The translations under genes and the position numbers were made by a program. Positions 5,914 through 20,889 of a stretch of 64,000 nt of DNA are shown here, in pieces. Position 1 is the stretch's first letter, and every line of letters begins with the position of its first letter. This stretch comes from Gramella sp. MT6 (GTDB taxonomy: Bacteria > Bacteroidota > Bacteroidia > Flavobacteriales > Flavobacteriaceae). Location: positions 1,240,001-1,304,000 of the forward strand of contig NZ_CP048410.1 of assembly GCF_019357415.1 (NCBI RefSeq). Reading direction: 5' to 3'. The notes under the pieces are model-generated. The model saw only the letters and a program-made list of their open reading frames with translations, did no database searches and was not told the DNA's origin.

Positions 5914-8646
5914 ATGAGAAAGTTTCTATTTTTAGTGATGCTGCTAGCAACCACTTCGATTTTTGCCCAGGGAACGGTTACCGGTACGGTATTGGATTCC
6001 GAAATGGATGGTCCTTTACCGGGAGCAAATGTTTTGGTAGTTGGTACTCAACAAGGTGCTATGACCGATTTTGATGGGAATTTCAGCCTTGACGTTGAAG
6101 ATGCTACAGGTCAAATTAGAATTAGCTTTGTAGGTTATCAGACCAAAACTGTAAAGTTCAATGTTTCTAATGGTCAAACTCAGGACTTAGGTCAGATAGT
6201 TTTAACTCCAGATGCAAATGCCTTATCTGAAGTTGTGATCACAGGTGTAGTAGACCTTGCCAAGGATCGCCAGACTCCTGTGGCTGTTTCTACTATTCGT
6301 TCTACAGAGATCCAGGAGAAACTGGGGAACCAGGAATTTCCTGAGATCCTTAATACTACTCCATCAATTTATGCTACTAAACAAGGTGGTGGATTTGGAG
6401 ATTCGCGTATTACCATTCGAGGTTTTGATACTCAGAACTCTGCCGTGATGATTAACGGTATTCCTGTGAACGACATGGAAAACGGACAGGTATACTGGAG
6501 TAACTGGGCTGGTCTTAGCGATGTGGCTTCAGCGGTACAGGTACAAAGAGGTTTAGGTTCTTCTAAACTTGCCGTTTCGTCTGTAGGTGGTACTATTAAC
6601 GTGGTAACTCGTTCAGCAGAAAGAAAAGAAGGTGGTTTTGTAAAAGCTAGTTTTGGTAACGATAATTACTTAAAAACAGTTGCTTCTTACAACACCGGAC
6701 TTAATGATAATGGATGGTCTGGATCATTTTTATTCAGCAGAACAGCTGGAGATGGTTATGTGAACGGAACCGAATTTGAAGGCTATAACTACTTCATAGG
6801 CGTTGGTTATAAGGCAAATGAAGATCATGACTTTAACTTCATGCTTACGGGTGCTCCACAGCAACATAATCAAAGAGGTGCATTCACAAGACTTTCAAGC
6901 TACCTTGCCTATGGAGAAAATGGTGAGCCAAATGAAAAATACAATCTTGACTACGGATACAGAAACGGGGAAGAATTTACTTTCGCTGGTAACTTCTATC
7001 ATAAACCTGTAGCTTCTCTTAGCTGGGAATGGGATATAACCAGTCTTTCAAAATTATCTACAACCGCATATGCTTCTTTTGGTAGGGGTGGTTCTATAGG
7101 TTCTATTGGTAGGATCAATGGTAGACAATCGTTTGCCCTTCCATTAACTGAAGATGGTTTAATTCCTATGGATGATATTTTTGCATGGAACTCTGGTCAG
7201 GATGTTCCTGCTTTTGGAGACCCAAGACAACCATATTCTGGTGAAGGCCAGTACCAGGGGCAGTTTGTAAATACTGGAAACGGGGATCGTTCTGGTGAAA
7301 ATGGGATTTCACAACGTTCTTCTGTAAACTCTCACAACTGGTTTGGTGTTATCTCCAACTTCGAAACTGAACTTACAGATAAAATTACTTTAGACCTTGG
7401 AGCAGATCTAAGATCTTATAGAGGTTTCCATTACCGTAGATTAGTAGACCTTATGGGTGCAGATACTTATCTTTCAACTGCAGATAGCAATAATCCAACC
7501 AGGTTCCTTAATGAAACTTACGAGCCTACCATAGGTAATACTTTGAATGTATTCAAGAGTATAGACGATGAGGAGAAGATCGACTATTATAATGATGGAT
7601 TGGTAAGATGGGCTGGTGTTTTTGGCCAGTTAGAATACGCTGGAGATCAGATCTCTGCTTTTATCCAGGGATCATTGTCTAACCAGGGATTCAAAAGAAT
7701 AGAATACTTTAACGAACCTCCTGCTACTCAGGAAACCGACTGGGAGAACATCCTTGGTGGGAATATTAAAGGGGGTATGAACTATAATATAGACGAGAAA
7801 CATAACGTATTCGGGAATGTTGGTTACTATTCAAAACAACCATTATTCGATGCTGTTTATATCAACTTTGGTAATACTTTAAATCCGAATTTAACTAACG
7901 AACAGGTTTTTGGAATTGAATTAGGTTATGGTTTCCGTTCTCAGTACTTCAATGCTAATGTGAATATCTATAGAACATCATGGGCTGATAGATTCGAGTC
8001 TGATGCAGCAACCTTCTTTGAGGATACGCCAAATGAAATTAGAGGAACAGCGAACTTACTTGGTATTACACAGGTTCATAAAGGATTTGAATTCGACTTC
8101 TATGGTAGAGTTGGAGATAAATTCAGATGGAATGGTATGCTTTCTATAGGTGATTGGGAATATAAGGACGATGTGGTAGCTTCATATTTTGATGAAAACC
8201 AGAACCCGATTCCTGGAGTTGACGATGCTGTGCTTAATCTTGACGGAGTTAAAGTTGGGAATGCTGCACAATTAACTGCTAGTTTAGGTGCAGATTATCA
8301 GATCCTCGATAATTTAAGTGTTGATGCAACTTATAGATATGCAGATAATCTATATGCAGATTTCGATGCTACAGATGCCCTGAACGATCCAGATTTCGAA
8401 GTGTTTGAAGTTCCTTCTTACGGTCTTTTAGACCTTGGAGCTTCTTATGGTCTTGATTTAGGAGATAACAGATTGAGCTTTAGATTGAACGTGAATAACG
8501 TGACAGATAATATTTATATTTCTGAATCCAATACTAATATCCTTGCAGGTCCGGAGGATACAACCTATGACGGAGTGAATGTTAATAATAACGTTTTCTT
8601 TGGATGGGGAAGAACCTGGAATGCAAGTGTAGCTTTTAGGTTCTAG
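5914..8646 (+). CDS. TonB-dependent outer-membrane receptor (first of three paralogues)
   Basis: This 910-residue protein would import a substrate across the outer membrane using TonB energy. After a signal peptide ending in IFAQ comes a carboxypeptidase regulatory-like beta-sandwich (about residues 20-100, GTVTGTVLDSEMDGPLPGAN). A plug domain follows (about 115-235, with IRGFDTQNSAVMINGIP and the block VYWSNWAGLSDV). The rest is a beta-barrel ending in Phe (SVAFRF), as expected for BAM substrates. It stands alone between terminators at 5764-5793 and 8672-8710, with no SusD-like partner. It closely resembles the receptor at 8942. The substrate is unknown; the nucleases nearby suggest nucleic acid products. 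Confidence 0.93.
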   Translation: MRKFLFLVMLLATTSIFAQGTVTGTVLDSEMDGPLPGANVLVVGTQQGAMTDFDGNFSLDVEDATGQIRISFVGYQTKTVKFNVSNGQTQDLGQIVLTPDANALSEVVITGVVDLAKDRQTPVAVSTIRSTEIQEKLGNQEFPEILNTTPSIYATKQGGGFGDSRITIRGFDTQNSAVMINGIPVNDMENGQVYWSNWAGLSDVASAVQVQRGLGSSKLAVSSVGGTINVVTRSAERKEGGFVKASFGNDNYLKTVASYNTGLNDNGWSGSFLFSRTAGDGYVNGTEFEGYNYFIGVGYKANEDHDFNFMLTGAPQQHNQRGAFTRLSSYLAYGENGEPNEKYNLDYGYRNGEEFTFAGNFYHKPVASLSWEWDITSLSKLSTTAYASFGRGGSIGSIGRINGRQSFALPLTEDGLIPMDDIFAWNSGQDVPAFGDPRQPYSGEGQYQGQFVNTGNGDRSGENGISQRSSVNSHNWFGVISNFETELTDKITLDLGADLRSYRGFHYRRLVDLMGADTYLSTADSNNPTRFLNETYEPTIGNTLNVFKSIDDEEKIDYYNDGLVRWAGVFGQLEYAGDQISAFIQGSLSNQGFKRIEYFNEPPATQETDWENILGGNIKGGMNYNIDEKHNVFGNVGYYSKQPLFDAVYINFGNTLNPNLTNEQVFGIELGYGFRSQYFNANVNIYRTSWADRFESDAATFFEDTPNEIRGTANLLGITQVHKGFEFDFYGRVGDKFRWNGMLSIGDWEYKDDVVASYFDENQNPIPGVDDAVLNLDGVKVGNAAQLTASLGADYQILDNLSVDATYRYADNLYADFDATDALNDPDFEVFEVPSYGLLDLGASYGLDLGDNRLSFRLNVNNVTDNIYISESNTNILAGPEDTTYDGVNVNNNVFFGWGRTWNASVAFRF

Positions 8647-8671
8647 ACCTAATTTCCAGATAATTAAAAAG

Positions 8672-8710
8672 AAGCTCCGGTGAAATCCGGAGCTTTTTTT
8701 ATTTTTTTTA
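8672..8710 (+). terminator. Terminator after the first TonB receptor
   Basis: Perfect 9-bp arms AAGCTCCGG (8672-8680) and CCGGAGCTT (8687-8695) with loop TGAAAT are followed by a long T-rich tail. Confidence 0.92.
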
Positions 8711-8759
8711 ATAATTGTTATTAAATCTCTTGTTGATAGGACTTGGTCTTCCTTAAAAA

Positions 8760-8789
8760 TTGATATTCAGCTGATTAACAATAATTTTG
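8760..8789 (+). promoter_or_regulatory. Promoter of the second TonB receptor operon, with a long leader
   Basis: TTG (8760-8762), a 19-base spacer and TAATTTTG (8782-8789) match the Bacteroidetes consensus. The start site would be near 8795, leaving a leader of about 147 nt before the ATG at 8942. The leader holds no ORF. A second, weak -7-like element TTTTTTTG is at 8900-8907. No known riboswitch was recognised in the leader. Confidence 0.5.
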
Positions 8790-8941
8790 TAGGATTATTT
8801 TAGCCTTTCCGTCCTAAATTCCTTGAATTTTGGCAAGATTCATAGGTAATAAGTTAAAACTCTTAACACTTAGATAATGCTAGTTATGTAAGAATTGTGT
8901 TTTTTTGCACCGAATTTTAATCAAACACAAACAATTAAAAC

Positions 8942-11476
8942 ATGAGGAAATTATTACTGCTAGCGATGTTCCTTACATCTGCTACAATTTTTGCTCAAGG
9001 AACTATAACTGGAAAAGTTATAGATTCTGAAATGGATGGCCCACTGCCGGGTGCCAATGTTAAAGTTTCTGGCACAAGCAATGGTACCATGACAGATTTT
9101 AATGGAAACTTTAGTCTTACAGTATCTGAAGCTGAAGGGTCTATTGAGATCAGTTTCGTAGGTTATGAAACAAAAACAGTAAAATTCTCCATTACTGGAG
9201 GATCTAAAGATTTAGGAAGTATAATCCTTAGCCCAGATGCAGACGCATTGGATGAGGTTGTTGTAACTAGCTTCTCTCTTGCGATAGACCGTAAGACACC
9301 GGTAGCTGTTTCTACAATAAGTGCTGCAGAGATCGAAACTAAGATTGGTAACCAGGAATTTCCTGAAGTGCTAAAATCTACTCCAGGAGTATATGCTAAC
9401 AAAGCCGGGGGTGGTTTTGGTGATGCTGAACTTCGTATGAGAGGTTTTGAAGGTGAGAATATTGCTGTTATGATCAACGGTGTTCCTGTGAACGACATGG
9501 AAAACGGTCGTGTTTACTGGAGTAACTGGGCTGGTCTTTCAGACGTAACCAGAACTATGCAAACACAAAGAGGTCTTGGTGCTGCGAAAGTTGCCGTTCC
9601 ATCTATTGGTGGTACTGTAAACATCGTAACTAAGTCTACTGATGCTGAAAAAGGTGGAAACATTTATGCTGCAACAGGTAATGATGGTTATACTAAATTT
9701 GGAGCTACCGTTTCTACTGGTAGAACAGAAAATGGTCTTGCTGCTACAGTTTCTGCCTCAAGAACTGTTGGTGATGGATATGTTGACGGAACTGAATTTA
9801 TTGGATATAACTACTTCGTGAACATTGCGAAGGAATTTGGAGAAAACCATGAGCTTTCTTTTACTGCTTTTGGTGCTCCACAAAGACACGGACAACGTCA
9901 AAACAGATATTTGATCGAGACTTACCGTGAAAGTGATAGAGGAATTAAATTCAACGGTGACTGGGGTTACTTAAATGGTCAGGTTACTCACATTGAAGAT
10001 AACTTCTACCACAAGCCACAAATGTCACTTAACCACTACTGGGATATAAATGAAAATACACTTTTATCTACTGCCGTTTATGCTTCATTCGGTACTGGTG
10101 GAGGTGGCGGATGGGCCGGAACAAACAAGTTCGGTCTTGATTCTGAATACAGAGATGGATATTTACAGCCTGTAAATCTTGATCTTATCGTAGATGAAAA
10201 TATCGCGAATGGTGCTCAGGGATCTGAAACTATCCTTAGAGCTTCTAGAAACGACCATAACTGGTTTGGAGCTTTATCTACTCTTTCTACAGATATCACT
10301 GAAGACATCGAATTACTTGCAGGTATCGATCTTAGATACTACAAAGGTAAGCACTTCCAGGAAGTAACAGATCTTTTAGGAGGTCAGTACTGGTATGATG
10401 ATTCTAATGCAAACGATCCGGTAAACCTTGCACAGGTTGGAGATAAGATCAGCTACTGGAATGACGGTATCGTACTTTGGGAAGGTGGATTCCTTCAGGC
10501 AGAGTATACAAAGTCAGATTTTGATGCATTTATCTCTCTTGCCGCTTCTAACACTTCTTATAAGCGTATCGATTATTTCAACTACACAGATTCAGATCCA
10601 TTACAGGAAACAGATTACGTGAACTTCTTTGGATATCAGGTAAAAGGTGGTGCTAACTATAACTTCACTAGAAGTAGTGGTGTATTTGCCAATATTGGGT
10701 ACTTCGAGAAAGCTCCTTTCTTTGATGCGGTATTTCTTAACTTCCAGAATGATATAAACTCTGATGCTAAGAACCAGAAGATCTTTAGTGCTGAAGTTGG
10801 ATATACTTTCAGAACAGACAAGTGGAGAGCTAATGTGAATGCATATAGAACTAACTGGAATGATAGATCTCTTACTTATAGCTATAACAATCCTGATGGT
10901 TCACTTGGTGTAGCAAACATACTTGGAGTAAATGCACTTCACCAGGGTATCGAGGTAGATTTTGAATACCGTCCTTTCGAAGAACTTAGCATTACAGGTT
11001 TCGCTTCCCTAGGAGACTATACTTGGGCAGACGATGTAACTGGAGTTCAGATATTTGACGAGGAACAGAACCTTGTAGATGAAATAAATCTTTATATTGG
11101 AGATACTAAAGTAGGTGGTACTCCACAAACTACTGCTGGTCTTGGTGTAGATTACGAATTCCTTGCAGATATGAGACTTAGAGCTAATTACAACTTCTTT
11201 GGAGACTTTTATTCTGACTTCGATCCAGTAAGCAGAACTAATCCTGAGGCTCCTGAAGTATGGCAGGTTCCAGATTTCGGAACTCTTGATGTAGGTCTTT
11301 CGTATGACTTCTCGGTAGCTGGTTTTGATACTGCCTTGAACGCGAATGTTTACAACATTACAGGTACAGAATATATTGCTAACGCTCAGAATGGTTTAGG
11401 AAACGATGCACGTACTGCATTGGTATGGTATGGTTTCGGAAGAACTTACACTGTAGGAGCAAAACTTAATTTCTAA
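8942..11476 (+). CDS. TonB-dependent outer-membrane receptor (second paralogue)
   Basis: The protein has 844 residues, with the same layout as the receptor at 5914: a signal peptide ending TIFAQ, a carboxypeptidase-like domain (about 20-98, GTITGKVIDSEMDGPLPGAN), a plug (about 112-230, MRGFEGENIAVMINGVP, VYWSNWAGLSDV), and a beta-barrel ending YTVGAKLNF. N-terminal and plug identity with the first receptor is high, so the two arose by duplication; the barrels differ more and may bind different substrates. It is 10 bases upstream of a repeat-containing lipoprotein, which therefore is its likely surface partner in the place a SusD protein often takes. Many codons end in the favoured bases GGT, CTT and AAC, which hints at high expression. 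Confidence 0.93.
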   Translation: MRKLLLLAMFLTSATIFAQGTITGKVIDSEMDGPLPGANVKVSGTSNGTMTDFNGNFSLTVSEAEGSIEISFVGYETKTVKFSITGGSKDLGSIILSPDADALDEVVVTSFSLAIDRKTPVAVSTISAAEIETKIGNQEFPEVLKSTPGVYANKAGGGFGDAELRMRGFEGENIAVMINGVPVNDMENGRVYWSNWAGLSDVTRTMQTQRGLGAAKVAVPSIGGTVNIVTKSTDAEKGGNIYAATGNDGYTKFGATVSTGRTENGLAATVSASRTVGDGYVDGTEFIGYNYFVNIAKEFGENHELSFTAFGAPQRHGQRQNRYLIETYRESDRGIKFNGDWGYLNGQVTHIEDNFYHKPQMSLNHYWDINENTLLSTAVYASFGTGGGGGWAGTNKFGLDSEYRDGYLQPVNLDLIVDENIANGAQGSETILRASRNDHNWFGALSTLSTDITEDIELLAGIDLRYYKGKHFQEVTDLLGGQYWYDDSNANDPVNLAQVGDKISYWNDGIVLWEGGFLQAEYTKSDFDAFISLAASNTSYKRIDYFNYTDSDPLQETDYVNFFGYQVKGGANYNFTRSSGVFANIGYFEKAPFFDAVFLNFQNDINSDAKNQKIFSAEVGYTFRTDKWRANVNAYRTNWNDRSLTYSYNNPDGSLGVANILGVNALHQGIEVDFEYRPFEELSITGFASLGDYTWADDVTGVQIFDEEQNLVDEINLYIGDTKVGGTPQTTAGLGVDYEFLADMRLRANYNFFGDFYSDFDPVSRTNPEAPEVWQVPDFGTLDVGLSYDFSVAGFDTALNANVYNITGTEYIANAQNGLGNDARTALVWYGFGRTYTVGAKLNF

Positions 11477-11486
11477 AAAAATAATA

Positions 11487-13202
11487 ATGAAAAAGTCTTT
11501 TAACCTTTTATTGATGTTATTAGGGCTGGTTGTAGTTAGCTGTAACCCTCTTGATGACATTCATGACGAAATTGACAATGAGCTGGATAATCAACTGGCA
11601 GTCGCTCAGGCAGATTATGTGTTGACTGAAGATGATTATGAAGACCTGGGATTGGACTTCAATAATTTCAGTTCAGAAGAAGATGCAAGAACATTAGTTC
11701 CAACGCTTCTTTCAGATCTTTTTCCAACTTATGGAGCTGGATCTATCCTTAACGTAGGATTTGATCTATTCAATCCTTTAAGAATAGAATCATATACTGT
11801 AGCTTCTTCAGACTATGCTTTAATAGATCTTTCGACAGATTATTTTACTGGTAGAGGAGAAGTTATCGATTTTCTAGATGAAAAGTACCCTCAGGTACAA
11901 GAAGGAGAATATATCGAGCTTACTTACAACATCCTTGCAGAAGAGATTGCTTATACCTTAACTGCAGATGATTTTGATGTGATTGGTGATGAACTTGGGG
12001 ATGTATATCCAGAGCCTGCTTCTAGTGCTGCTCAATACAGCAACTTCGATAGAAGAGACGATAGAGATGCATACTGGAGCAACGATATGATCGTAGAAGC
12101 TCTTGGAGCAGTTATCTCTGAAGAGTTTGGAGATGTTGCTGGTCAAAAATACAATGTGAGCTATGCTATTTACGATGGTAGTTCAGGAACTGAGAGTATG
12201 ACCGTTCAGTTTGACGGGAATGCATATGTTGCTGTTGGTGGAATGGCTTACGAATTCTCTGATGCAGATTATGATGCTGTTGGTGAAGAATTCGCAGATG
12301 AATATCCTGGACCAGCTGGAAATGCTGCTCAATTTGGATCTTTTGATGTAAGATCTACCAGCGATAACTACTGGAGTGAAGATATGCTTCTTGAGGCTAT
12401 CAACTTCACCCTGAAAACTGCATATCCAGATGCTGCAGACGGAAGCAAATTCGTTGTTTCTTATGCGATTTACAATGGATCTGTAAGCACCGCTATCACC
12501 AACGTGGTATTAAGTGGTGATGATTATGTGATCGATGCTGATGCTTCAGTTTCTACAATCGAAGAAACTACTGTATTTGCTTATACTAACGGAGACTGGG
12601 ATGAGCCTTATATGCTACCTGAAAATAGCTATACAGAAGAATTCGGTCAGCGTTTTAGCAACTTTGGTGATGAGGAAGAAGCACTTTCTAAGATCGGTAT
12701 TTTCTTAGGTAGAGAATTTCCTTACGCCGTTGAAGGTGAATACAAAGCGGTTGGTTATAAGTTTTATAATGGCGAAGCTACTGTAACTGAATATGTGAAC
12801 TATGTATTCCAGAATGGATCGTGGATGGCTATTCCAACTGTAACTTCTGAAACACTTCAGTTTGGTTATGAAGACGGAATGTGGGTTCCAGATAACACTA
12901 TCAAGTACACTCTTGCCGGACCAGATTACGGAATTATTGCTGAAGCATTGAGCGGAAATGCAGATCTTTCTACTCAGATCGCCAGTATGGAGCGTTATTC
13001 TAACTTCGATCGTAGACCGGGAGCTTCTGCTTACTGGAGTGACGATTCAATTCTTCTGGCAATGCAGGCATTCCTTAACGAGATTGCTCCAAGTGCACCA
13101 GAAGGACAGAAGTATGTACTTACATTCGATATTTATAATGGATCTAACACTACTGAAGACATTAGTCTTATTAAAGAAGGTGGTGAATGGGTTCGTTTCT
13201 AA
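11487..13202 (+). CDS. Repeat-containing lipoprotein, probable partner of the upstream receptor
   Basis: The protein has 571 residues and a lipobox VVSC (Cys19). The rest is acidic and built from about five degenerate units of 80-95 residues. The clearest are about 158-250, 257-348 and 475-571, with looser copies near 46-157 and 380-449. Typical unit features are an acidic helix with a DYDAVGEE-like start, an aromatic block such as YSNFDRR, a YW-S-(E/D)D-(M/S) block, an EG/DG-(Q/E/S)KY segment, and a (A/D)IYNGS-like strand near the end. I do not recognise the family. It directly follows the TonB receptor and is closed by the terminator at 13232-13264, so the two form an operon. A surface-exposed ligand-binding or lid role is inference from position. 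Confidence 0.8.
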   Translation: MKKSFNLLLMLLGLVVVSCNPLDDIHDEIDNELDNQLAVAQADYVLTEDDYEDLGLDFNNFSSEEDARTLVPTLLSDLFPTYGAGSILNVGFDLFNPLRIESYTVASSDYALIDLSTDYFTGRGEVIDFLDEKYPQVQEGEYIELTYNILAEEIAYTLTADDFDVIGDELGDVYPEPASSAAQYSNFDRRDDRDAYWSNDMIVEALGAVISEEFGDVAGQKYNVSYAIYDGSSGTESMTVQFDGNAYVAVGGMAYEFSDADYDAVGEEFADEYPGPAGNAAQFGSFDVRSTSDNYWSEDMLLEAINFTLKTAYPDAADGSKFVVSYAIYNGSVSTAITNVVLSGDDYVIDADASVSTIEETTVFAYTNGDWDEPYMLPENSYTEEFGQRFSNFGDEEEALSKIGIFLGREFPYAVEGEYKAVGYKFYNGEATVTEYVNYVFQNGSWMAIPTVTSETLQFGYEDGMWVPDNTIKYTLAGPDYGIIAEALSGNADLSTQIASMERYSNFDRRPGASAYWSDDSILLAMQAFLNEIAPSAPEGQKYVLTFDIYNGSNTTEDISLIKEGGEWVRF

Positions 13203-13231
13203 ATAATGATCAAACATAATTGATTATTCTA

Positions 13232-13264
13232 AAAACCTCTTATCCTATGGGTAAGAGGTTTTTT
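13232..13264 (+). terminator. Terminator after the receptor-lipoprotein operon
   Basis: Arms 13232-13245 and 13249-13262 pair over 14 bp with one wobble around a TAT loop. The right arm ends in a run of T. The hairpin lies upstream of the nuclease start chosen at 13313. Confidence 0.92.
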
Positions 13265-13312
13265 AATTCATTGATTTATATGATATTTGCACTCCTGATA
13301 CAAAAATCTACC

Positions 13313-14950
13313 ATGAAAAAAATTATTTATCTAGCCCTTTTCGCTGTCCTTTTAAGTTGTAGTTCAGATGAGAACCCGGCGCCAAAACCAGATCCAACTC
13401 CAGGTGTGAGCAATCCTGAAGCCGTGAACGATTCATTTAATGCAAGAGAGAACCAGGAGCTTAAAATTTCCCTGAGTGATCTAACAAGCAATGATAATAT
13501 AGTAGACAACTCCAGGGTTAGTGATTTTGATGCCGAAACTCAGGAAGGTGGTACGATCACCGATAATCGAGATGGAAGTCTTACTTATGATCCTCCAGCA
13601 GATTTCATTGGAGAAGATAGTTTCTCATATGACCTTTGTGTTCCTGGCGATGACAGTAGATGTTCTACGGCAGTGGTTACACTTACGGTTACAGATGCTG
13701 GTGATCCGGTAGCTAATAACGATTCCTATAGCATTGATGAAGACCAGGATCTTACGATCAGAAATTATCTTGATAATGATGAACTTGTAGATGGTGCCGT
13801 GGCTACTGAAGTTACTTCTGAAAGCGGGAACGCCACCGTGATCCTTAATGAGGATGGAACCATCAGTTATACACCTAATGAAGGTTTTAGCGGAGAAGAT
13901 TCTTTCACATATACTATATGTGATTCAGATGAAACACCCACCTGCTCAACGGCTACGATCAATATGACTGTAGTAGATGAGGGAGCACCGGTAGCTAACG
14001 ATGATACCGTTGTGATCACTACCACAACTACAGAGGTTGTGATAGATAAAATGCTGAATAATGATGACGCTATAGATGATGCAGAAATAACTTCCATAGA
14101 TCTTGCCGGGACTTCTGGAACTGCAGAGCTTAATGGAGATGGGACGATCACCTACAGGCCAGCCGCTGGATTTGAGGGAGACGATACCTTTACCTATACC
14201 TTATGCGACGATGACGCTGAAGCTACTTGTGTAACAGCAACGATCACTGTAAGTATTGTAGAACCGGTAAGTTTTAATGTGCCTGCCAGCTTATCAGATT
14301 ATTATGCGGAGGTAACTTTTACCCAGGATCCTGAACTTTTATATCAGGAATTATCTAGCTTTACAACAACCCAGCATACTAACCTTCTTGAATATTATCA
14401 GAGGCATGATTATCTTTATGATGCAGATGAGGACCTTGATAATCCAGATAATGTAATCCTGATGTATTCAGGAGAAAGCAGACCCGAAGATGAAATTCAG
14501 GTTGGAGATCTTAATGCAGGAGAAACCTTTAATACCGAGCATATTTATCCCCAGTCCAGACTTAATTCAGAAGAAGCTAAGAACGATATGCACCATATGA
14601 GGGCGGCAGATGTCAATATCAATTCTGAAAGATTGAACTTCCCTTTTACCGATGGTAGTGGAGAATATAAACTTGTAGATGATAATTCATGGTTCCCAGG
14701 AGACGACTGGAGAGGAGATGTTGCCAGGATGGTAATGTACGTGAACCTGAGATATGGTGAAGATTTTGCTACCGTAGGTAACCTTGACCTGTTCCTTGAA
14801 TGGAATATAGAAGACCCGGTTTCAGAATTTGAAATGCAACGTAATAATGTAATTGAAGCGGCACAGGGTAATAGAAATCCTTTTATCGATAATCCATTTC
14901 TTGCAACCCTTATCTGGGGCGGTGAGGATGCTGAAAACAGATGGGAGTAA
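13313..14950 (+). CDS. Surface endonuclease I-family lipoprotein with three cadherin-like domains
   Basis: The start at 13313 is chosen because it gives a lipoprotein signal (LLSC, Cys16); the open frame back to 13220 would begin before the terminator hairpin. The 545-residue protein has three tandem cadherin/Ig-like domains (about 36-128, 132-222 and 226-316), each with a G-(E/D)-D-(S/T)-F-(S/T)-Y block. A C-terminal endonuclease I domain follows (about 325-545). Nuclease motifs are NTEHIYPQS with the catalytic Glu409-His410, HHMRAADVNIN (427-437), and RNPFIDNPF (521-529). The family uses one metal ion to cut DNA, or RNA, without strong sequence preference. The likely place is the cell surface, where it would cut extracellular nucleic acid near the receptors. 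Confidence 0.9.
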   Translation: MKKIIYLALFAVLLSCSSDENPAPKPDPTPGVSNPEAVNDSFNARENQELKISLSDLTSNDNIVDNSRVSDFDAETQEGGTITDNRDGSLTYDPPADFIGEDSFSYDLCVPGDDSRCSTAVVTLTVTDAGDPVANNDSYSIDEDQDLTIRNYLDNDELVDGAVATEVTSESGNATVILNEDGTISYTPNEGFSGEDSFTYTICDSDETPTCSTATINMTVVDEGAPVANDDTVVITTTTTEVVIDKMLNNDDAIDDAEITSIDLAGTSGTAELNGDGTITYRPAAGFEGDDTFTYTLCDDDAEATCVTATITVSIVEPVSFNVPASLSDYYAEVTFTQDPELLYQELSSFTTTQHTNLLEYYQRHDYLYDADEDLDNPDNVILMYSGESRPEDEIQVGDLNAGETFNTEHIYPQSRLNSEEAKNDMHHMRAADVNINSERLNFPFTDGSGEYKLVDDNSWFPGDDWRGDVARMVMYVNLRYGEDFATVGNLDLFLEWNIEDPVSEFEMQRNNVIEAAQGNRNPFIDNPFLATLIWGGEDAENRWE

Positions 14951-14998
14951 AAAGAAATACATTTAGTATTTTAGCCATTACTTAAAAACACTATTACT

Positions 14999-15439
14999 AT
15001 GTACGAAACAGTTCAATTCATTCACTCTTATTGGGCATACCTGGTGCTGTTCATGTTATTGATATCGAGTTTTAATGCGATCATTGGATTTGCTACCAAC
15101 AAGGAGTATTCAGCTACCAATTTCAGGTTAGCCCTTTTTACACTGATCGTTTCGCATATTCAACTGCTAATAGGAATCGTTCTTTACTTTACCACTCCGT
15201 ATTTTAAGATGTGGGCCGAAGAAGGAATGGGTGGAGTTATGAAAGATTCAGTGTTAAGACTATATAATGTAGAGCATCCTTTAATTATGATTATTGCGAT
15301 TGTCTTGATCACAATGGGGTATTCCAAACATAAAAAGAAACTTACCTCAAGGCCTAAATTCAAAATGCTGGCTATTTTTTATGGATTCGCTTTGATAGCT
15401 ATGCTTTCAAGAATTCCATGGGCAGCCTGGTTCAATTAG
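14999..15439 (+). CDS. Four-helix membrane protein, often labelled cytochrome b-like
   Basis: The 146-residue protein is largely hydrophobic with about four transmembrane helices: residues 10-30, 42-65, 92-108 and 123-142. Histidines occur near the helices (H9, H53, H93), which may be why relatives carry cytochrome b labels, but no proven heme motif is visible. It is widespread in flavobacteria as far as I recall. It starts 48 bases after the nuclease gene and could be read through from it. The terminator at 15483-15512 follows. The function is unknown. Confidence 0.7.
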   Translation: MYETVQFIHSYWAYLVLFMLLISSFNAIIGFATNKEYSATNFRLALFTLIVSHIQLLIGIVLYFTTPYFKMWAEEGMGGVMKDSVLRLYNVEHPLIMIIAIVLITMGYSKHKKKLTSRPKFKMLAIFYGFALIAMLSRIPWAAWFN

Positions 15440-15482
15440 AAAAATTTTGAGCGATATCCAAATGTGATATTCTGAATGTAAT

Positions 15483-15512
15483 AAAGCCTCCGATCAAATG
15501 GAGGCTTTTTTT
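15483..15512. terminator. Terminator between convergent genes
   Basis: Arms AAAGCCTCC (15483-15491) and GGAGGCTTT (15500-15508) pair perfectly, with T's to 15512 on the plus strand. The minus-strand tail is weaker (TTTATT), so it mainly ends plus-strand transcripts and may also serve the nuclease at 15511. Confidence 0.85.
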
Positions 15513-16575
15513 ATTGGTCGTTCTTAACTTCCCGGATCAGGAACAGGTAGACCGGAAAATGATCACTATACCCTGGCTCATAGCCTGAACTGCCATAAGT
15601 TCTGAAAGGATAGCCTCTATACTGTCCGGTTTGGGTTATTACATACGGAGGATTGAATATTCCGGCTTTATAAAGCTGAAAACCTTCAAAATTTCTCGAA
15701 ACCAGGCTTTGAGAAAGATAGAATTGATCAAAAAGATTCCAGGAATCGCGATAAGCAAGGGTGCCTTTTCCGTTTTTGAGCATTATTTCCATAGGATTAT
15801 ATAGTTCTCTTTCCTTCAATTCGGAAATTTCCGGTTTGGTTTGTAAGAACTTTTTAAAGCTTTTATTGGTAGGATCATCGTTAAAATCTCCCATTCCAAT
15901 GATGCGCGCATTTGGATCCTGCCTATACAGCGAATCTATGATCTTTTTATTCAGTATTGCTGCCTTCTCACGCTTATAACTGCTTTTAGCTTCACCACCA
16001 GACCGAGATGGCCAGTGGTTTACTATAAAATGGATCTCTTCACCATGCATCAATCCGCTTACAACTAATTGGTCCCGGGTGTAATCCCGCTTATCGGCAT
16101 CATAGATCATTAATTTCCTGGGTTGCGAATTCAGGGGGGTAAATCCTGATTTTCGATATAACAGGGCTACATCGATACCTCGTTCATCTGGAGAATCGAA
16201 GTGAATAATTCCATAATTGTATTCTGCCAGGTATTCATGAGAGATTAGGTCTTCCAGCACCAACCTGTTCTCGATCTCACACAATCCAATAATTAGCGGA
16301 GTGTTTCCTGCTTCATCTTTCCCAATCTCTGAAAGTACCCTTGCGATATTTTCTATTTTTCTTGAATAACGATCCTCTGTCCAACGATCTTTTCCTAGCG
16401 CTGTCCTATCATCATCAAAGGTCAAAGTATCGTCTACGGTATCAAAGAGGTTCTCTACGTTGTAGAAAGCTACGGTTTCGATCTGGTAATCTTTCATATT
16501 CTGACAATATACGCCATTGCCGGAATAGAGGATCAGGTTAAAAACTAATATTATCGGTATAAGGTGTAGCTTCAA
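15511..16575 (-). CDS. Secreted endonuclease/exonuclease/phosphatase family protein
   Basis: The 354-residue protein begins at a TTG codon that gives a signal peptide (LIPIILVFNLILYSGNGVYC). It belongs to the EEP superfamily (DNase I, exonuclease III, phosphatases). Key blocks in order are FYNVENLFD (N-terminal Asn), IIGLCEIEN (metal-binding Glu), VNHWPSRSGG near 185 (catalytic His), GMGDFNDDP near 228 (Asp and Asn), and GYSDHFPV near 338 (Asp-His pair). All catalytic residues are kept. It is divergent from the third TonB receptor and convergent with the membrane protein gene. Export together with the nearby endonuclease I suggests a role in nucleic acid breakdown outside the cytoplasm, but a phosphodiesterase or lipid phosphatase role cannot be excluded. 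Confidence 0.88.
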   Translation of the reverse strand: MKLHLIPIILVFNLILYSGNGVYCQNMKDYQIETVAFYNVENLFDTVDDTLTFDDDRTALGKDRWTEDRYSRKIENIARVLSEIGKDEAGNTPLIIGLCEIENRLVLEDLISHEYLAEYNYGIIHFDSPDERGIDVALLYRKSGFTPLNSQPRKLMIYDADKRDYTRDQLVVSGLMHGEEIHFIVNHWPSRSGGEAKSSYKREKAAILNKKIIDSLYRQDPNARIIGMGDFNDDPTNKSFKKFLQTKPEISELKERELYNPMEIMLKNGKGTLAYRDSWNLFDQFYLSQSLVSRNFEGFQLYKAGIFNPPYVITQTGQYRGYPFRTYGSSGYEPGYSDHFPVYLFLIREVKNDQ

Positions 16576-16616
16576 AATATTGTCGGGAATAAAGAAGTTT
16601 AAAGTACTGATATTTT

Positions 16617-16650
16617 GTTAGTTATAATATAATTGACTAACATTATATTA
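16617..16650. promoter_or_regulatory. Interlocked inverted repeats in a divergent promoter region
   Basis: GTTAGT (16617-16622) pairs with ACTAAC (16636-16641), while TAATATAA (16625-16632) pairs with TTATATTA (16643-16650). The two pairs overlap, so only one hairpin can form at a time in RNA; as DNA they may be protein sites. They lie between the divergent nuclease (16575) and receptor (16673) genes. Confidence 0.3.
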
Positions 16651-16672
16651 CATTTCGATGAGAAGGCACTAA

Positions 16673-19498
16673 ATGAAAATTTCGATTTTCTGGGTTTTCA
16701 TCTTCATGCTAATAAGTTTGAAAATGAGTTCCCAGCAACCGGCCATACAGGGCAGGTTAGTAGACGCAATCACCGATGTGCCCTTACCACAGGTTAAAAT
16801 TGCAATTCAGGGTTCATTTCTTGAAACCCTGACCAATACCGATGGAACTTTTTCCATTGGGGTAGAAAAAACTGGGTCTGATGAAATAATTCTGGTGGTT
16901 AGCAGGGCGGGATATATTACCAAACGCTTACCGCTAAAAATAACTTCTGAAAATAAAGATCTGGGTGATATCTTACTACGGCCAGATGAGTTCTATGAAA
17001 GAAGTCAGCAGTCTACGATAAGTCTTTCCGAATCTGAGATCCTTTCTGAAGAAGGTGAATTCGACAATATCTCAGGGCTGCTACAATCCACAAGGGATGT
17101 TTATCTCAATGCTGCCGCTTTCGATTTTAGCCAGACATTCTTCAGAGTCCGGGGTTTAGGTTCCGAATATGGGAAGTTGCTCATTAACGGAGTGGAAATG
17201 AACAAGCTTTATGACGGTCGCCCACAATGGAGCAACTGGGGCGGACTAAATGATGTGCAGCGAAATCAGGTTTTTACCAATGGCATTGCCCCTATGGAAT
17301 ATGGTTTTGGAGGTTTGGGCGGGACCTCTAATATCCTTATGCGGGCCTCAAAATATCAACAGGGTTCGAGAGTTTCATTTGCAGGTTCCAATAGGTCTTA
17401 TTCCGGAAGGATCATGGCAACTTACGCTTCCGGGGAAAAGGGGAATGGATGGTTTTATGCATTTTCTATAGCAAGGCGTTATGCCGAAGAGGGGTATATT
17501 GACGGTACTTTATATGATTCAAATTCCTTTTTTGCTTCTGTCGAGAAAAAAGTAAATGATCGGCATTCTCTTAATTTCACCGGATTTTATACGCCGGTTA
17601 CTCGAGGTAAATCTTCTCCGCTTACCCAAGAAGTACTGGATCTAAAAGGCCGGAAATATAATCCGTATTGGGGTTACCAGGAAGGAGAAATTCGTAATTC
17701 CAGGATAAGGGAGATCAAGGAGCCTGTTTTGATGCTGAATCACTTCTGGCAGGTTTCTGAAAATATTGATATCAACACCAATATTTCTTATCAGTTTGGT
17801 GAAGTAACCAATTCCAGGATAGATTATGGCGGGACCACTTCAGTAGAGCTAGACGGTCAACAGGTTTACCTTGGCGGTGGAGCCAATCCCGATCCAGCTT
17901 ATTATCAAAAGCTACCCAGTTATTATTTGCGGTTCGATGGATCAGAAAATTTTGAAGCTGCCTTTCGCTCACAAAATGATCTTGTTGAAAATGGACAGCT
18001 GGATTGGCAACAATTATACTTCGCAAACCATACTGCTTCTCAAAATGGAACAAATTCCATCTATGCTTTGGCAGAGGATGTAAATCAGGATGATCAACTC
18101 AGTGCAAACATAATTCTGAACTGGAAGTTGCAGGATAATTTTAAGATCAATTCAGGAATTAGATATAGTGCCTTTAAAAGTGAAAATTTCGCGCGTATCA
18201 AAGATAATTTCGGAGGAAATAATTTCCTGGATATAGATGTTTTCGCGGAAGAGATCTCCGGCACTCCTTTGATACTTGCCAGCCAGTCTGACCTTTTGAA
18301 TCCTAACAGATTAGTTGAAACAGGAGATGTTTATAAATATAGTTATGAGGTTAATTCTAATCTTGCCGAAGCCTTTCTCCAGGCGCAATATTATTTTAAA
18401 AGAGTGGAATTGAGCCTTACCGGTAAAATTGGATCAATTCAATATCAACGAGAAGGGAAATACCAGAATGGGATCTTTTCTGAAAATTCGCTGGGGGAGA
18501 GTGAAATAATAGATTTTCTCGATTTTGGATTAAAATCTGGCCTAATCTATAAATTTTCAGGCAGGCAGAATATTGAATTCAATCTTGGCTATTTTAACAA
18601 GCCACCCGGTTTTAGAAATGTATTCGTGAACCCTAGACAGAATAATGAGATAGTGAGAGATAGCGAAGAAGAGATCATCCAGACTTCAGATCTAAGCTAT
18701 AGATATCGATCTTCAAAGTTCAATTTACGTTTAACCGGCTATTTAACTAAGATCAATAATGCCGCTGAAGTATCTTATTATTTCAGCAATGGTTTGGCAG
18801 ACTTGGGAAATGAAAATACGGCGGCATTTGTCCAGGAGGTGCTTGCAGATATAGATAAACAATTATTCGGTTTGGAATTTGGGAGTGAATACCAGGTAAC
18901 TTCTACTATAAAACTGAAGGCAGTGGCTTCATTAGGTCAATTTACCTATGCAAATAATCCTTCTTTGTATTTGAGTTCGGCATCATTTTCCGGTCCCAAA
19001 GATTATGGGAAGGCCTATTTAAAAGATTACTACCTGGCCGGTGGCCCTCAAAGAGCTGCACAATTTGGGTTTGAATACCGAGATCCTCAATATTGGTGGT
19101 TTGGCAGTACCTTGAATTACTTTTCTCATGGATTTATAGATGTTAATCCACTTAGTAGAACTTCAAATTTTCAGACAGATTATGACGGATTTCCCTTGCT
19201 TGAATATGACGAAGAGATTGCTCGGGAACTACTAAAGCAGGAACAATTTGATAGTTATTTCCTGGTGAATGTGGTTGGAGGGAAGTCATGGAGAATCAAA
19301 GATAAATACCTGGGATTTTTCGTGAGTATAAATAACCTTCTGGATAAGGAATATAAATCGGGAGGATTTGAGCAGGCTCGAAATTCGAATTACAGAACTT
19401 TGAGGGAGGATATGGATAGAGATATGCCGGTTTTTGGAAATAAATACTGGCTTGGTTACGGCACCAGCTTTTTCGGGAATCTGAGCCTTAGATTTTAA
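16673..19498 (+). CDS. TonB-dependent outer-membrane receptor (third, divergent paralogue)
   Basis: This 941-residue protein has a signal peptide ending MSSQ, a carboxypeptidase regulatory-like domain (about 23-105, IQGRLVDAITDVPLPQVKIA), a plug (about 125-235), and a beta-barrel ending in Phe (NLSLRF). The block QWSNWGGLNDV aligns with YWSNWAGLSDV of the two other receptors, so it is in the same subfamily. Its plug has RVRGLGSEYGKLLING, and the rest is clearly more distant. Codon choice is more mixed than in the receptor at 8942, which suggests lower expression. A DUF5689 lipoprotein starts 11 bases after it and must be its operon partner. Confidence 0.92.
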   Translation: MKISIFWVFIFMLISLKMSSQQPAIQGRLVDAITDVPLPQVKIAIQGSFLETLTNTDGTFSIGVEKTGSDEIILVVSRAGYITKRLPLKITSENKDLGDILLRPDEFYERSQQSTISLSESEILSEEGEFDNISGLLQSTRDVYLNAAAFDFSQTFFRVRGLGSEYGKLLINGVEMNKLYDGRPQWSNWGGLNDVQRNQVFTNGIAPMEYGFGGLGGTSNILMRASKYQQGSRVSFAGSNRSYSGRIMATYASGEKGNGWFYAFSIARRYAEEGYIDGTLYDSNSFFASVEKKVNDRHSLNFTGFYTPVTRGKSSPLTQEVLDLKGRKYNPYWGYQEGEIRNSRIREIKEPVLMLNHFWQVSENIDINTNISYQFGEVTNSRIDYGGTTSVELDGQQVYLGGGANPDPAYYQKLPSYYLRFDGSENFEAAFRSQNDLVENGQLDWQQLYFANHTASQNGTNSIYALAEDVNQDDQLSANIILNWKLQDNFKINSGIRYSAFKSENFARIKDNFGGNNFLDIDVFAEEISGTPLILASQSDLLNPNRLVETGDVYKYSYEVNSNLAEAFLQAQYYFKRVELSLTGKIGSIQYQREGKYQNGIFSENSLGESEIIDFLDFGLKSGLIYKFSGRQNIEFNLGYFNKPPGFRNVFVNPRQNNEIVRDSEEEIIQTSDLSYRYRSSKFNLRLTGYLTKINNAAEVSYYFSNGLADLGNENTAAFVQEVLADIDKQLFGLEFGSEYQVTSTIKLKAVASLGQFTYANNPSLYLSSASFSGPKDYGKAYLKDYYLAGGPQRAAQFGFEYRDPQYWWFGSTLNYFSHGFIDVNPLSRTSNFQTDYDGFPLLEYDEEIARELLKQEQFDSYFLVNVVGGKSWRIKDKYLGFFVSINNLLDKEYKSGGFEQARNSNYRTLREDMDRDMPVFGNKYWLGYGTSFFGNLSLRF

Positions 19499-19509
19499 TT
19501 TGATTAGTT

Positions 19510-20889
19510 ATGAAGAATAGATCTTTACTGATGATTGTAATAGTCTTACTACTTTGTTCTTGCGTGAAGACAGATGATTATGATTCTCCAGATATCAGCA
19601 TTCCAGATATTACTATTACAGGTGACCTCACCTCGATAATGGCTGTTAAAGGAAATTTTGATCCAGTTACCGGACAGATTTACACCTTTCAGAATTCAGA
19701 AACGTGGTTTGAAGGCTATGTGATCTCAAGTGATGCCGGTGGTAATTTTTATAAAGAAATTATTTTACAGGATAAGCCTGAAGATCCCACTTCAGGAATC
19801 CAGATCCTTTTAGATGATAATTCGCTCTATGAAACTTTTGATATTGGCAGAAAAGTTTTGGTGAAACTAGATGGTTTAAGTCTCGGTTTTAATAATGGTG
19901 TTTTACAATTGGGAATTCAGAATCTTGGCGATGTCGTGGCAATTCCAAATGCTCTTATCCAGGATCATGTTTTTAGGACGGAGGTGAAAAAGGATATCAA
20001 ACCACTTTCAGTGAATATTGATGATTTCTCTGAAGAGTTAAAGAACCTATATATTAAAATAACTAATGTCCAGTTCGATCCGAATCTGGTAAGGACAGAT
20101 AATCTATATTCTTTTGCTTCTAATACAGTAGATCAATATGATGGTAAAAGACAACTCATAAGTTGCGAAACAGGATCCACTTCAATCTTAAGTACCAGTA
20201 CATTTTCAGATTTTAAGTCTTTACTGTTGCCAACTGGTAGTGGCAGTATTGAAGGTATACTAACCCGTGATTTTTATGATGAGCATTATGTTGTGGTTAT
20301 TAATACTCCAGATGCTTTGAAGATGTATGAGGAGCGCTGTGACCCTATCTACCTTGATTGCGGAAATAATTTGATTGGAGGTACTGAAATCTTGCTGGAA
20401 GAAAACTTCGATGGAGTGACTTCCAATACCACTTTGAACTCTCGTGGCTGGACCAATATTAATGTGAGCGGGGGAGAAAAGAAATTTGCACCTACCTTAT
20501 CTGCGGGCAACAGGGTCCTGAGAATTTCGGCCTACAATACTATTGAAAGTCCATTGGAAGCCTGGCTCGTTACTCCAGAGATCAATCTGGATGAAACCAA
20601 TATGGAAGTTTTGATCTTTGATATGCTTTCGTCCTATGATAACGGACTTTTTATGAAGGTCTTTATTACTTCAGACTTCACTGGAGATCCACGAACTACT
20701 CATTGGACTGAGCTGGATGCAAATATTCCTTTAGGTCCTTCGGGTGCAAATTCTAACATTTTCAGGGAATCAAAGATCGATATTTCCTGCCTGGAAGGGG
20801 AGGTGTGGATTGGTTTCAGGTACTTGGGAGCCGCCCCAGATAAAACTACTACCTATGATCTGGATAATATAAGGGTGATTGGAGAATAA
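19510..20889 (+). CDS. DUF5689 lipoprotein with a choice-of-anchor J-like domain
   Basis: The protein has 459 residues, with lipobox LCSC near residue 17. The N-terminal half (about 35-260) fits DUF5689, an OB-fold-like domain seen in Bacteroidetes surface proteins, with GYVISSDAGGNFYKEIILQD as a typical strand pair. The C-terminal part (about 295-459) looks like the choice-of-anchor J beta-sandwich: EENFDG at its start, GW, AWLVTPEINL, and YDLDNIRV at the end. It sits 11 bases after the third TonB receptor. As I recall, DUF5689 proteins often occur beside nucleases and TonB receptors, which fits this locus. A binding role at the surface is inferred. Confidence 0.85.
   Translation: MKNRSLLMIVIVLLLCSCVKTDDYDSPDISIPDITITGDLTSIMAVKGNFDPVTGQIYTFQNSETWFEGYVISSDAGGNFYKEIILQDKPEDPTSGIQILLDDNSLYETFDIGRKVLVKLDGLSLGFNNGVLQLGIQNLGDVVAIPNALIQDHVFRTEVKKDIKPLSVNIDDFSEELKNLYIKITNVQFDPNLVRTDNLYSFASNTVDQYDGKRQLISCETGSTSILSTSTFSDFKSLLLPTGSGSIEGILTRDFYDEHYVVVINTPDALKMYEERCDPIYLDCGNNLIGGTEILLEENFDGVTSNTTLNSRGWTNINVSGGEKKFAPTLSAGNRVLRISAYNTIESPLEAWLVTPEINLDETNMEVLIFDMLSSYDNGLFMKVFITSDFTGDPRTTHWTELDANIPLGPSGANSNIFRESKIDISCLEGEVWIGFRYLGAAPDKTTTYDLDNIRVIGE

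Follow-up and report, generated by a model that had tools for sequence, protein, structure and literature searches.

Why do three TonB-dependent receptors, two nucleases and two further lipoproteins lie together within 15 kb of a flavobacterial chromosome? The locus occupies positions 5914–20889 of a 64,000-nucleotide stretch of Gramella sp. MT6 (contig NZ_CP048410.1, positions 1,240,001 to 1,304,000; the whole stretch is called the window below), and Christiangramia/Gramella proteins are its nearest named database relatives (best match 96%, C. gaetbulicola 85%). A sequence-only reading had taken the locus for a nucleic acid scavenging unit. All eight genes lie where they had been placed beforehand (open reading frame [ORF] list, Pfam and NCBIfam), and the gene list of that reading, namely three receptors, an endonuclease I, an EEP-family protein, a repeat lipoprotein and a DUF5689 lipoprotein, was correct. 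These genes form two blocks rather than one unit. Block A (5914–13202) sits behind pgi and contains two receptors, R1 and R2, and the repeat lipoprotein; block B (15511–20889) contains the EEP nuclease, the divergent receptor R3 and the DUF5689/choice-of-anchor-J lipoprotein. We propose that block B is probably the outer-membrane stage of natural transformation, a TonB-powered DNA importer in this Christiangramia/Gramella-like flavobacterium.

The EEP-family nuclease or phosphatase, our candidate for a periplasmic DNA-processing nuclease, is encoded on the minus strand (15511..16575; PF19580, 388.9 bits). R3, the proposed outer-membrane DNA channel, is encoded on the plus strand (16673..19498; Pfam CarbopepD_reg_2 and Plug), and the 97-bp gap between the two divergent genes (16576..16672) is likely a shared promoter region. 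The lipoprotein gene follows R3 on the plus strand (19510..20889; DUF5689, 179.7 bits; choice_anch_J in the C-terminal part, 63.9 bits), and its product is the proposed surface partner of R3.

DUF5689 is named in a transposon screen of natural transformation in Riemerella anatipestifer (PMC8459023; this and the other articles are cited here from parts of their text). In that work, RA0C_RS04915 is a carboxypeptidase-regulatory-like outer-membrane protein and RA0C_RS04920 a protein with DUF5689 and choice-of-anchor-J domains; with either gene cleanly deleted, transformation fell from 5.4e-5 to under the detection limit of about 4e-10, and insertions in comEC, dprA, recA and comF likewise abolished it (PMC8459023). 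The authors speculate that both proteins bind DNA and carry it across the outer membrane, and propose that a separate protein makes the DNA single-stranded, mentioning ComEC also as a possible agent (PMC8459023). Transformation is lowered in tonBA and tonBB mutants of Riemerella (PMC8383284).

The Riemerella genome that we compared is that of strain CCUG25054, located via a comEC primer from PMC8383284. There comEC is followed by two more ORFs and a minus-strand EEP gene, beyond which plus-strand genes encode a 935-residue receptor and a 469-residue DUF5689 protein. In Pfam this trio matched PF19580 (333 bits), CarboxypepD_reg (35.7) and DUF5689 (192 bits); Plug was not matched in the receptor at E <= 0.001. 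In BLASTP comparisons with the Riemerella proteins, R3 was 32.6% identical to the receptor (897 columns, E 7e-149), the window lipoprotein 28.9% identical to the DUF5689 protein (E 4e-35) and the window EEP 38.5% identical to its counterpart (E 9e-91). Because CCUG25054 is not by name the strain of the published screen, gene order and content served to assign the RA0C tags; their spacing fits this order (comEC, RA0C_RS04895; EEP, RA0C_RS04910; then RA0C_RS04915 and RA0C_RS04920). Judged by sequence and gene order, R3 and the lipoprotein are the orthologs of RA0C_RS04915 and RA0C_RS04920.

The role of the receptor/lipoprotein pair is thus already published for Riemerella; added here are a further locus bearing the pair and, as far as the literature listed shows, its long-standing EEP partner. 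PMC8459023 describes its four novel genes as widely distributed in Bacteroidetes, yet homologs of RA0C_RS04915 as present only in Flavobacteriaceae, and in view of these statements we claim no novelty for the reach of the pair. RA0C_RS04910 is named a single time in the main text of that article, in a transcription control that includes it as the gene upstream, with its product unstated, and a text search did not find the word 'exonuclease' in the main text. Among the literature matches listed, none linked an EEP nuclease to the receptor/lipoprotein pair, which is weak evidence of absence as subscription journals and preprints lay outside the search.

Is R3 found in genomes that carry competence genes? 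In the window's own genome (G000), comEC lies at 1584471, dprA at 1135536 and a gene for a 299-residue helix-hairpin-helix (HHH) protein at 2077537. The family sample comprised 60 genomes including this one, 55 of which have R3. In simple counts, comEC was present in 53/55 genomes with R3 vs 2/5 without; full-length dprA in 54/55 vs 2/5 (3/5 if the partial dprA of G030, profile 81–209 in a 383-residue frame, is scored as present rather than absent); and an HHH protein of about 290 residues in 53/55 vs 2/5, the criterion here being an HHH protein in the genome and not an established homolog of Riemerella RA0C_RS02645. A weak HHH match in G037 was scored as absent, and G058, whose R3 runs off a contig, and G021, with an interrupted R3 frame, were scored as having R3. 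The R3-less genome G030, 3.6 Mb in size and rated 100% complete, is devoid of R3, the lipoprotein, comEC and the HHH protein.

These data bear on the possibility that the cargo of R3 and the lipoprotein is another solute on which competence depends, such as an ion, a cofactor or a peptide; the Riemerella effect would then be indirect, and the EEP protein would act on this cargo as a phosphatase or lipid phosphodiesterase. We regard this as rather unlikely. First, transformation in Riemerella was lost completely, as it was with comEC, dprA and recA, while 14 of the screen's 23 mutants showed only a reduction (PMC8459023). Second, three of the five R3-less genomes also have neither comEC nor the HHH protein.

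The association of the three genes of block B was followed in 54 relatives from the family sample, in stretches of at most 20 kb surrounding R3, together with six other stretches. The DUF5689 lipoprotein was directly downstream of R3 in 52 of the 54 loci; one of the other two is cut by a contig end and one has an extra ORF in between. EEP was directly upstream and divergent in 47/54, with 5–185 bp between the listed EEP and R3 ORFs; one more locus has an endonuclease I gene between EEP and R3, two are cut and four are without EEP. The class-level sample comprised 119 genomes including the window's own, 20 of which had an R3 match at E <= 1e-45; the loci of 19 relatives were compared, two belonging to the window's family and 17 to ten others. 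The gene next to R3 was that of the lipoprotein in 15/19 (two without, two cut), and EEP was adjacent to R3 in 10/19, these ten representing seven families other than the window's, and a few genes away in two more. The trio thus occurs in most genera sampled within the window's family and also in further families of Bacteroidia. The sequence-only reading depended on a linkage of receptors with nucleases across relatives, and this linkage holds for EEP, R3 and the DUF5689 lipoprotein. Two single loci deserve mention: in L128 (G003) the R3-DUF5689 pair is in tandem duplicate, and in L144 (G021) R3 is in two reading frames with the EEP and lipoprotein genes kept, possibly a recently lost system.

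Such linkage might be mere inherited gene order, with EEP having an unrelated housekeeping role. The genes upstream of the locus (pgi, and by Pfam a Trp_dioxygenase-like gene, an M23 peptidase and DUF3108) form a neighbourhood largely conserved in the family, and G032 and G004 retain EEP in the absence of R3, as this explanation would have it. Against it, 26 family loci have no pgi or M23 gene upstream, and of the 24 that could be judged 20 keep EEP (19 adjacent, one with endonuclease I in between), while an R1/R2-type receptor (at least 500 bits) was found in none of the 26 stretches. EEP also accompanies R3 in further families at class level; two f33 loci (L187, L189) have it on the other strand, still with R3. 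We consider inherited order unlikely as the whole explanation.

The tree of EEP proteins (78 rows, midpoint root) places all R3-linked EEPs, including that of Riemerella, in one 65-row group (support 100/100). This single group argues for one nuclease kept with the receptor and not for repeated capture. A second EEP paralog forms a separate group (support 100/100). It was observed downstream of the lipoprotein and facing back in 13 loci (L102, L103, L104, L105, L111, L114, L117, L118, L120, L122, L123, L124 and L140), so that in these genomes the trio has an EEP gene at each end.

The R3-linked proteins have the features of an intact secreted enzyme of this family. Residues N39, E41, E100, D135, H187, D230, N232, D338 and H339, which we take to be the catalytic motif residues, were identical in 51/51 sequences, the window's included. 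The N-terminus was hydrophobic in all 51 and a lipobox-like motif was present in two; the window EEP has a signal peptide without a lipobox. The chain ended 9–19 residues past the last motif in these sequences, leaving no space for a type IX secretion domain. A periplasmic location is suggested by these features. The isoelectric point (pI) was above 7 in 36/51 sequences and 5.5 for the window EEP, and a PDB sequence search with this protein gave no match. The chances that the enzyme degrades or trims a strand of incoming DNA seem to us about even. By its sequence and position it is a candidate for the nuclease making single-stranded DNA that the Riemerella authors postulated.

As for the lipoprotein, Cys18 was invariant and D22/D23 were conserved at >= 90% in 35 homologs; a lipidation cysteine followed by acidic residues is a usual pattern among lipoproteins exposed at the cell surface in this phylum. 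The sequence-only reading gave DUF5689 an OB-like fold, which the N-terminal half may have; in a fold search, matches covered residues 289–459 only, which correspond to the C-terminal jelly-roll domain. The protein scored 221.2 against the NCBIfam M949_1556 lipoprotein subfamily and did not reach the curated cut-off of 475. A PDB sequence search with R3 gave no match.

We propose the following sequence of events. An acidic surface lipoprotein in complex with R3 would capture double-stranded DNA, and energy supplied by TonB would pull it through R3 to the periplasm, where the HHH protein would retain it. The periplasmic EEP nuclease would trim or remove one strand; ComEC would take in the remaining single strand, and DprA and RecA would take over. 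The observations behind this scheme are the match of the pair in sequence and gene order, the deep linkage of the nuclease, the intact motifs and the presence of comEC, dprA and an HHH protein in the genome. From these we infer that R3 is a DNA channel, that EEP acts on incoming DNA and that the organism is competent. Imported DNA could feed the cell as well, so transformation and nutrition need not exclude each other. A wider version of the scheme, which we put forward tentatively as the less probable one, is that receptor, surface lipoprotein and periplasmic EEP are an ancient three-gene DNA importer of Bacteroidota that replaces the pilus and secretin, with TonB pulling DNA through a beta-barrel receptor and EEP making the single strand for ComEC.

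Several points weigh against a role of block B in transformation. To our knowledge, no transformation is known for this organism. The lipoprotein is acidic, with a pI not above 7 in 45/46 sequences, which disfavours DNA binding by charge alone, and the EEP and R3 of the window are acidic as well. EEP is missing in 4/52 uncut family loci and non-adjacent in 9/19 class loci, two of which, L179 and L180, belong to the window's own family and have no EEP at the R3 locus. The co-presence counts are uncorrected for kinship and involve only five R3-less genomes; two of these, G004 and G052, are small and have neither the lipoprotein nor comEC nor the HHH protein, and two others, G032 and G046, keep comEC, dprA and the HHH protein without R3. 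A second PF19580 gene is present in Riemerella. From the published work, Flavobacterium johnsoniae, which has homologs, was not transformed under the Riemerella conditions (PMC7965970; PMC8459023), and the tonB mutants are described as reduced and not transformation-null (PMC8383284). EEP is not reported, in the parts of the article cited, by the transposon screen of 3000 mutants (PMC8459023), and we estimate the chance of a random miss at about 0.2 (random insertion, assumed genome size). Finally, ComEC itself may degrade one strand, an idea cited by the Riemerella authors (PMC8459023), and an extra nuclease is therefore possibly unneeded.

Block A contains the genes for R1 (5914..8646) and R2 (8942..11476), TonB-dependent receptors with Pfam CarboxypepD_reg and Plug domains, and for the repeat lipoprotein (11487..13202), which adjoins R2 as its partner and has no Pfam or NCBIfam match; all are on the plus strand. 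The sequence-only reading had assigned the three receptors to one subfamily with a shared WSNW-(A/G)-GL block. The block is indeed present in all three (YWSNWAGL, YWSNWAGL and QWSNWGGL); 'one subfamily' is a loose label, since R3 resembles R1 and R2 only distantly (best piece against R2, 33% over R3 residues 18–396). Between the blocks lie the gene of the endonuclease I lipoprotein (13220..14950, plus strand; three Big_9 stretches and Endonuclease_1, PF04231) and that of a 146-residue membrane protein without a Pfam match (14999..15439, plus strand), which is convergent with EEP. The latter gene was within four genes upstream of R3 in 35/54 family loci and stayed in eight loci with pgi/M23 surroundings lost or cut; it may belong to block B in the window's family.

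The two blocks part company in other genomes. Of the 28 family loci in which pgi or M23 precedes R3, 21 had an R1/R2-type receptor; by eye, five others (L096, L101, L102, L133, L138) had a different receptor-like protein of about 1080 residues in that slot, and two had none. The order pgi-R2-repeat lipoprotein was found on a different contig from R3, or some 95 kb or more away from it, in G045, G040, G029, G005 and G033 (L147–L151). An R1-type receptor (965 bits) is kept in the R3-less genome G032, and the R1-type gene of Riemerella lies by itself, the 16 kb compared there (L157) containing no match to another window gene; R1 and R2 were rejected as parts of the DNA importer for these reasons, and R1 is probably outside it. 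Two further R3-less genomes, G030 and G004, have receptors matching R3 at 114 and 129 bits, the level of R1/R2, their type not being established.

Homologs of the repeat lipoprotein were found in 17/60 family genomes, the window's own included. By eye it contains several related units, three of them with a YWS motif, and some homologs are named DUF5017 in UniRef. Its structural model had a mean pLDDT of 82.8 and a pTM of 0.49; it gave no solved-fold match at E <= 0.001, and a PDB sequence search with the protein gave no match. Evidence for nucleic acid handling by block A was limited to the endonuclease I gene that adjoins it in six genomes.

The endonuclease I lipoprotein with its catalytic motif, as first described from the sequence, was borne out: the Endonuclease_1 match spans positions 15–234 of the 235 in the profile (113.5 bits), and the motif FNTEHIYPQS...N, whose His and Asn residues presumably form the metal site, aligns with four relatives. 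The ORF is listed from a TTG; in our reading an ATG start at 13313 would place the lipobox LLSC properly. PF04231 is present in 36/60 family genomes. In only seven of these 36, the window's own included, does it lie close to the locus or adjoin R2/repeat lipoprotein, and it was rejected as a core member. In six it is beside R2/repeat lipoprotein (G000, G007, G036, G044, G037 and G057), and in G043 (L139) it lies between the divergent EEP and R3. A second copy in G043 was observed within 350 bp of a receptor matching R3 at 72 bits.

Could the whole 15 kb nevertheless be one nutritional locus, in which DNA or RNA is digested at the surface and imported for phosphorus, nitrogen or nucleosides? 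The proximity of a surface-type endonuclease I lipoprotein and an EEP nuclease to the receptors, including the placements of endonuclease I just listed, speaks for it; so do the phosphate-induced receptors and phosphodiesterases of Flavobacterium (PMC8115612), and a DNA importer might nourish the cell as well. Block A is apart from block B in L147–L151, and this separation led us to reject one nutritional locus for all eight genes. Endonuclease I is rarely near, and the phosphate-induced endonuclease I proteins of F. johnsoniae, EndA1 and EndA2, are listed as 'Orphan' (PMC8115612). The only phenotype that we found published for the R3/DUF5689 pair is natural transformation (PMC8459023). We hold the nutritional explanation to be improbable. 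What survives of the scavenging proposal is nucleic acid uptake by one half, block B; a single scavenging unit of all genes does not. A SusC/SusD type, and with it the logic of a polysaccharide utilisation locus, was rejected, as TIGR04056 matched only the N-terminal part of R1 (101.9) and R2 (108.6) against a cut-off of 368.25, gave no match for R3 in NCBIfam, and neither SusD nor, as already conceded from the sequence, any nucleoside catabolism family was found among the eight genes (Pfam/NCBIfam, E <= 0.001).

How does block B, read as a DNA importer, compare with known systems? It is closest to the Riemerella pair RA0C_RS04915/RA0C_RS04920 (PMC8459023), with the same receptor type, a DUF5689 and choice-of-anchor-J lipoprotein, the same order and a divergent upstream EEP; identity is low (33% and 29%), and here the system is known from genes alone. 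In F. johnsoniae, PUSI–PUSIV likewise have outer-membrane receptors near phosphodiesterases, and endonuclease I proteins (EndA1/EndA2) occur, but PUSI and PUSII use SusCD-type pairs and EndA is an orphan, whereas the window has no SusD (PMC8115612). Extracellular nucleases of the ExeM/NucH type share a distant EEP-domain similarity (22 bits), far below the 300-bit cut-off, and the window EEP is short and single-domain. With pilus-based Gram-negative uptake (ComEC, DprA, RecA) the inner-membrane and cytoplasmic steps are shared, comEC and dprA being present here, but the outer-membrane step would be carried out by a TonB-type receptor and a lipoprotein instead of a pilus and secretin.

In conclusion, nutrient uptake should not be the default annotation of DUF5689 lipoproteins encoded beside such receptors, and the locus has a bearing on gene spread by transformation in Bacteroidota. 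The EEP nuclease accompanies the pair in Riemerella, in the majority of genera sampled in the family and elsewhere in the class, and offers a concrete candidate gene in the question of how DNA is brought across the outer membrane for transformation.

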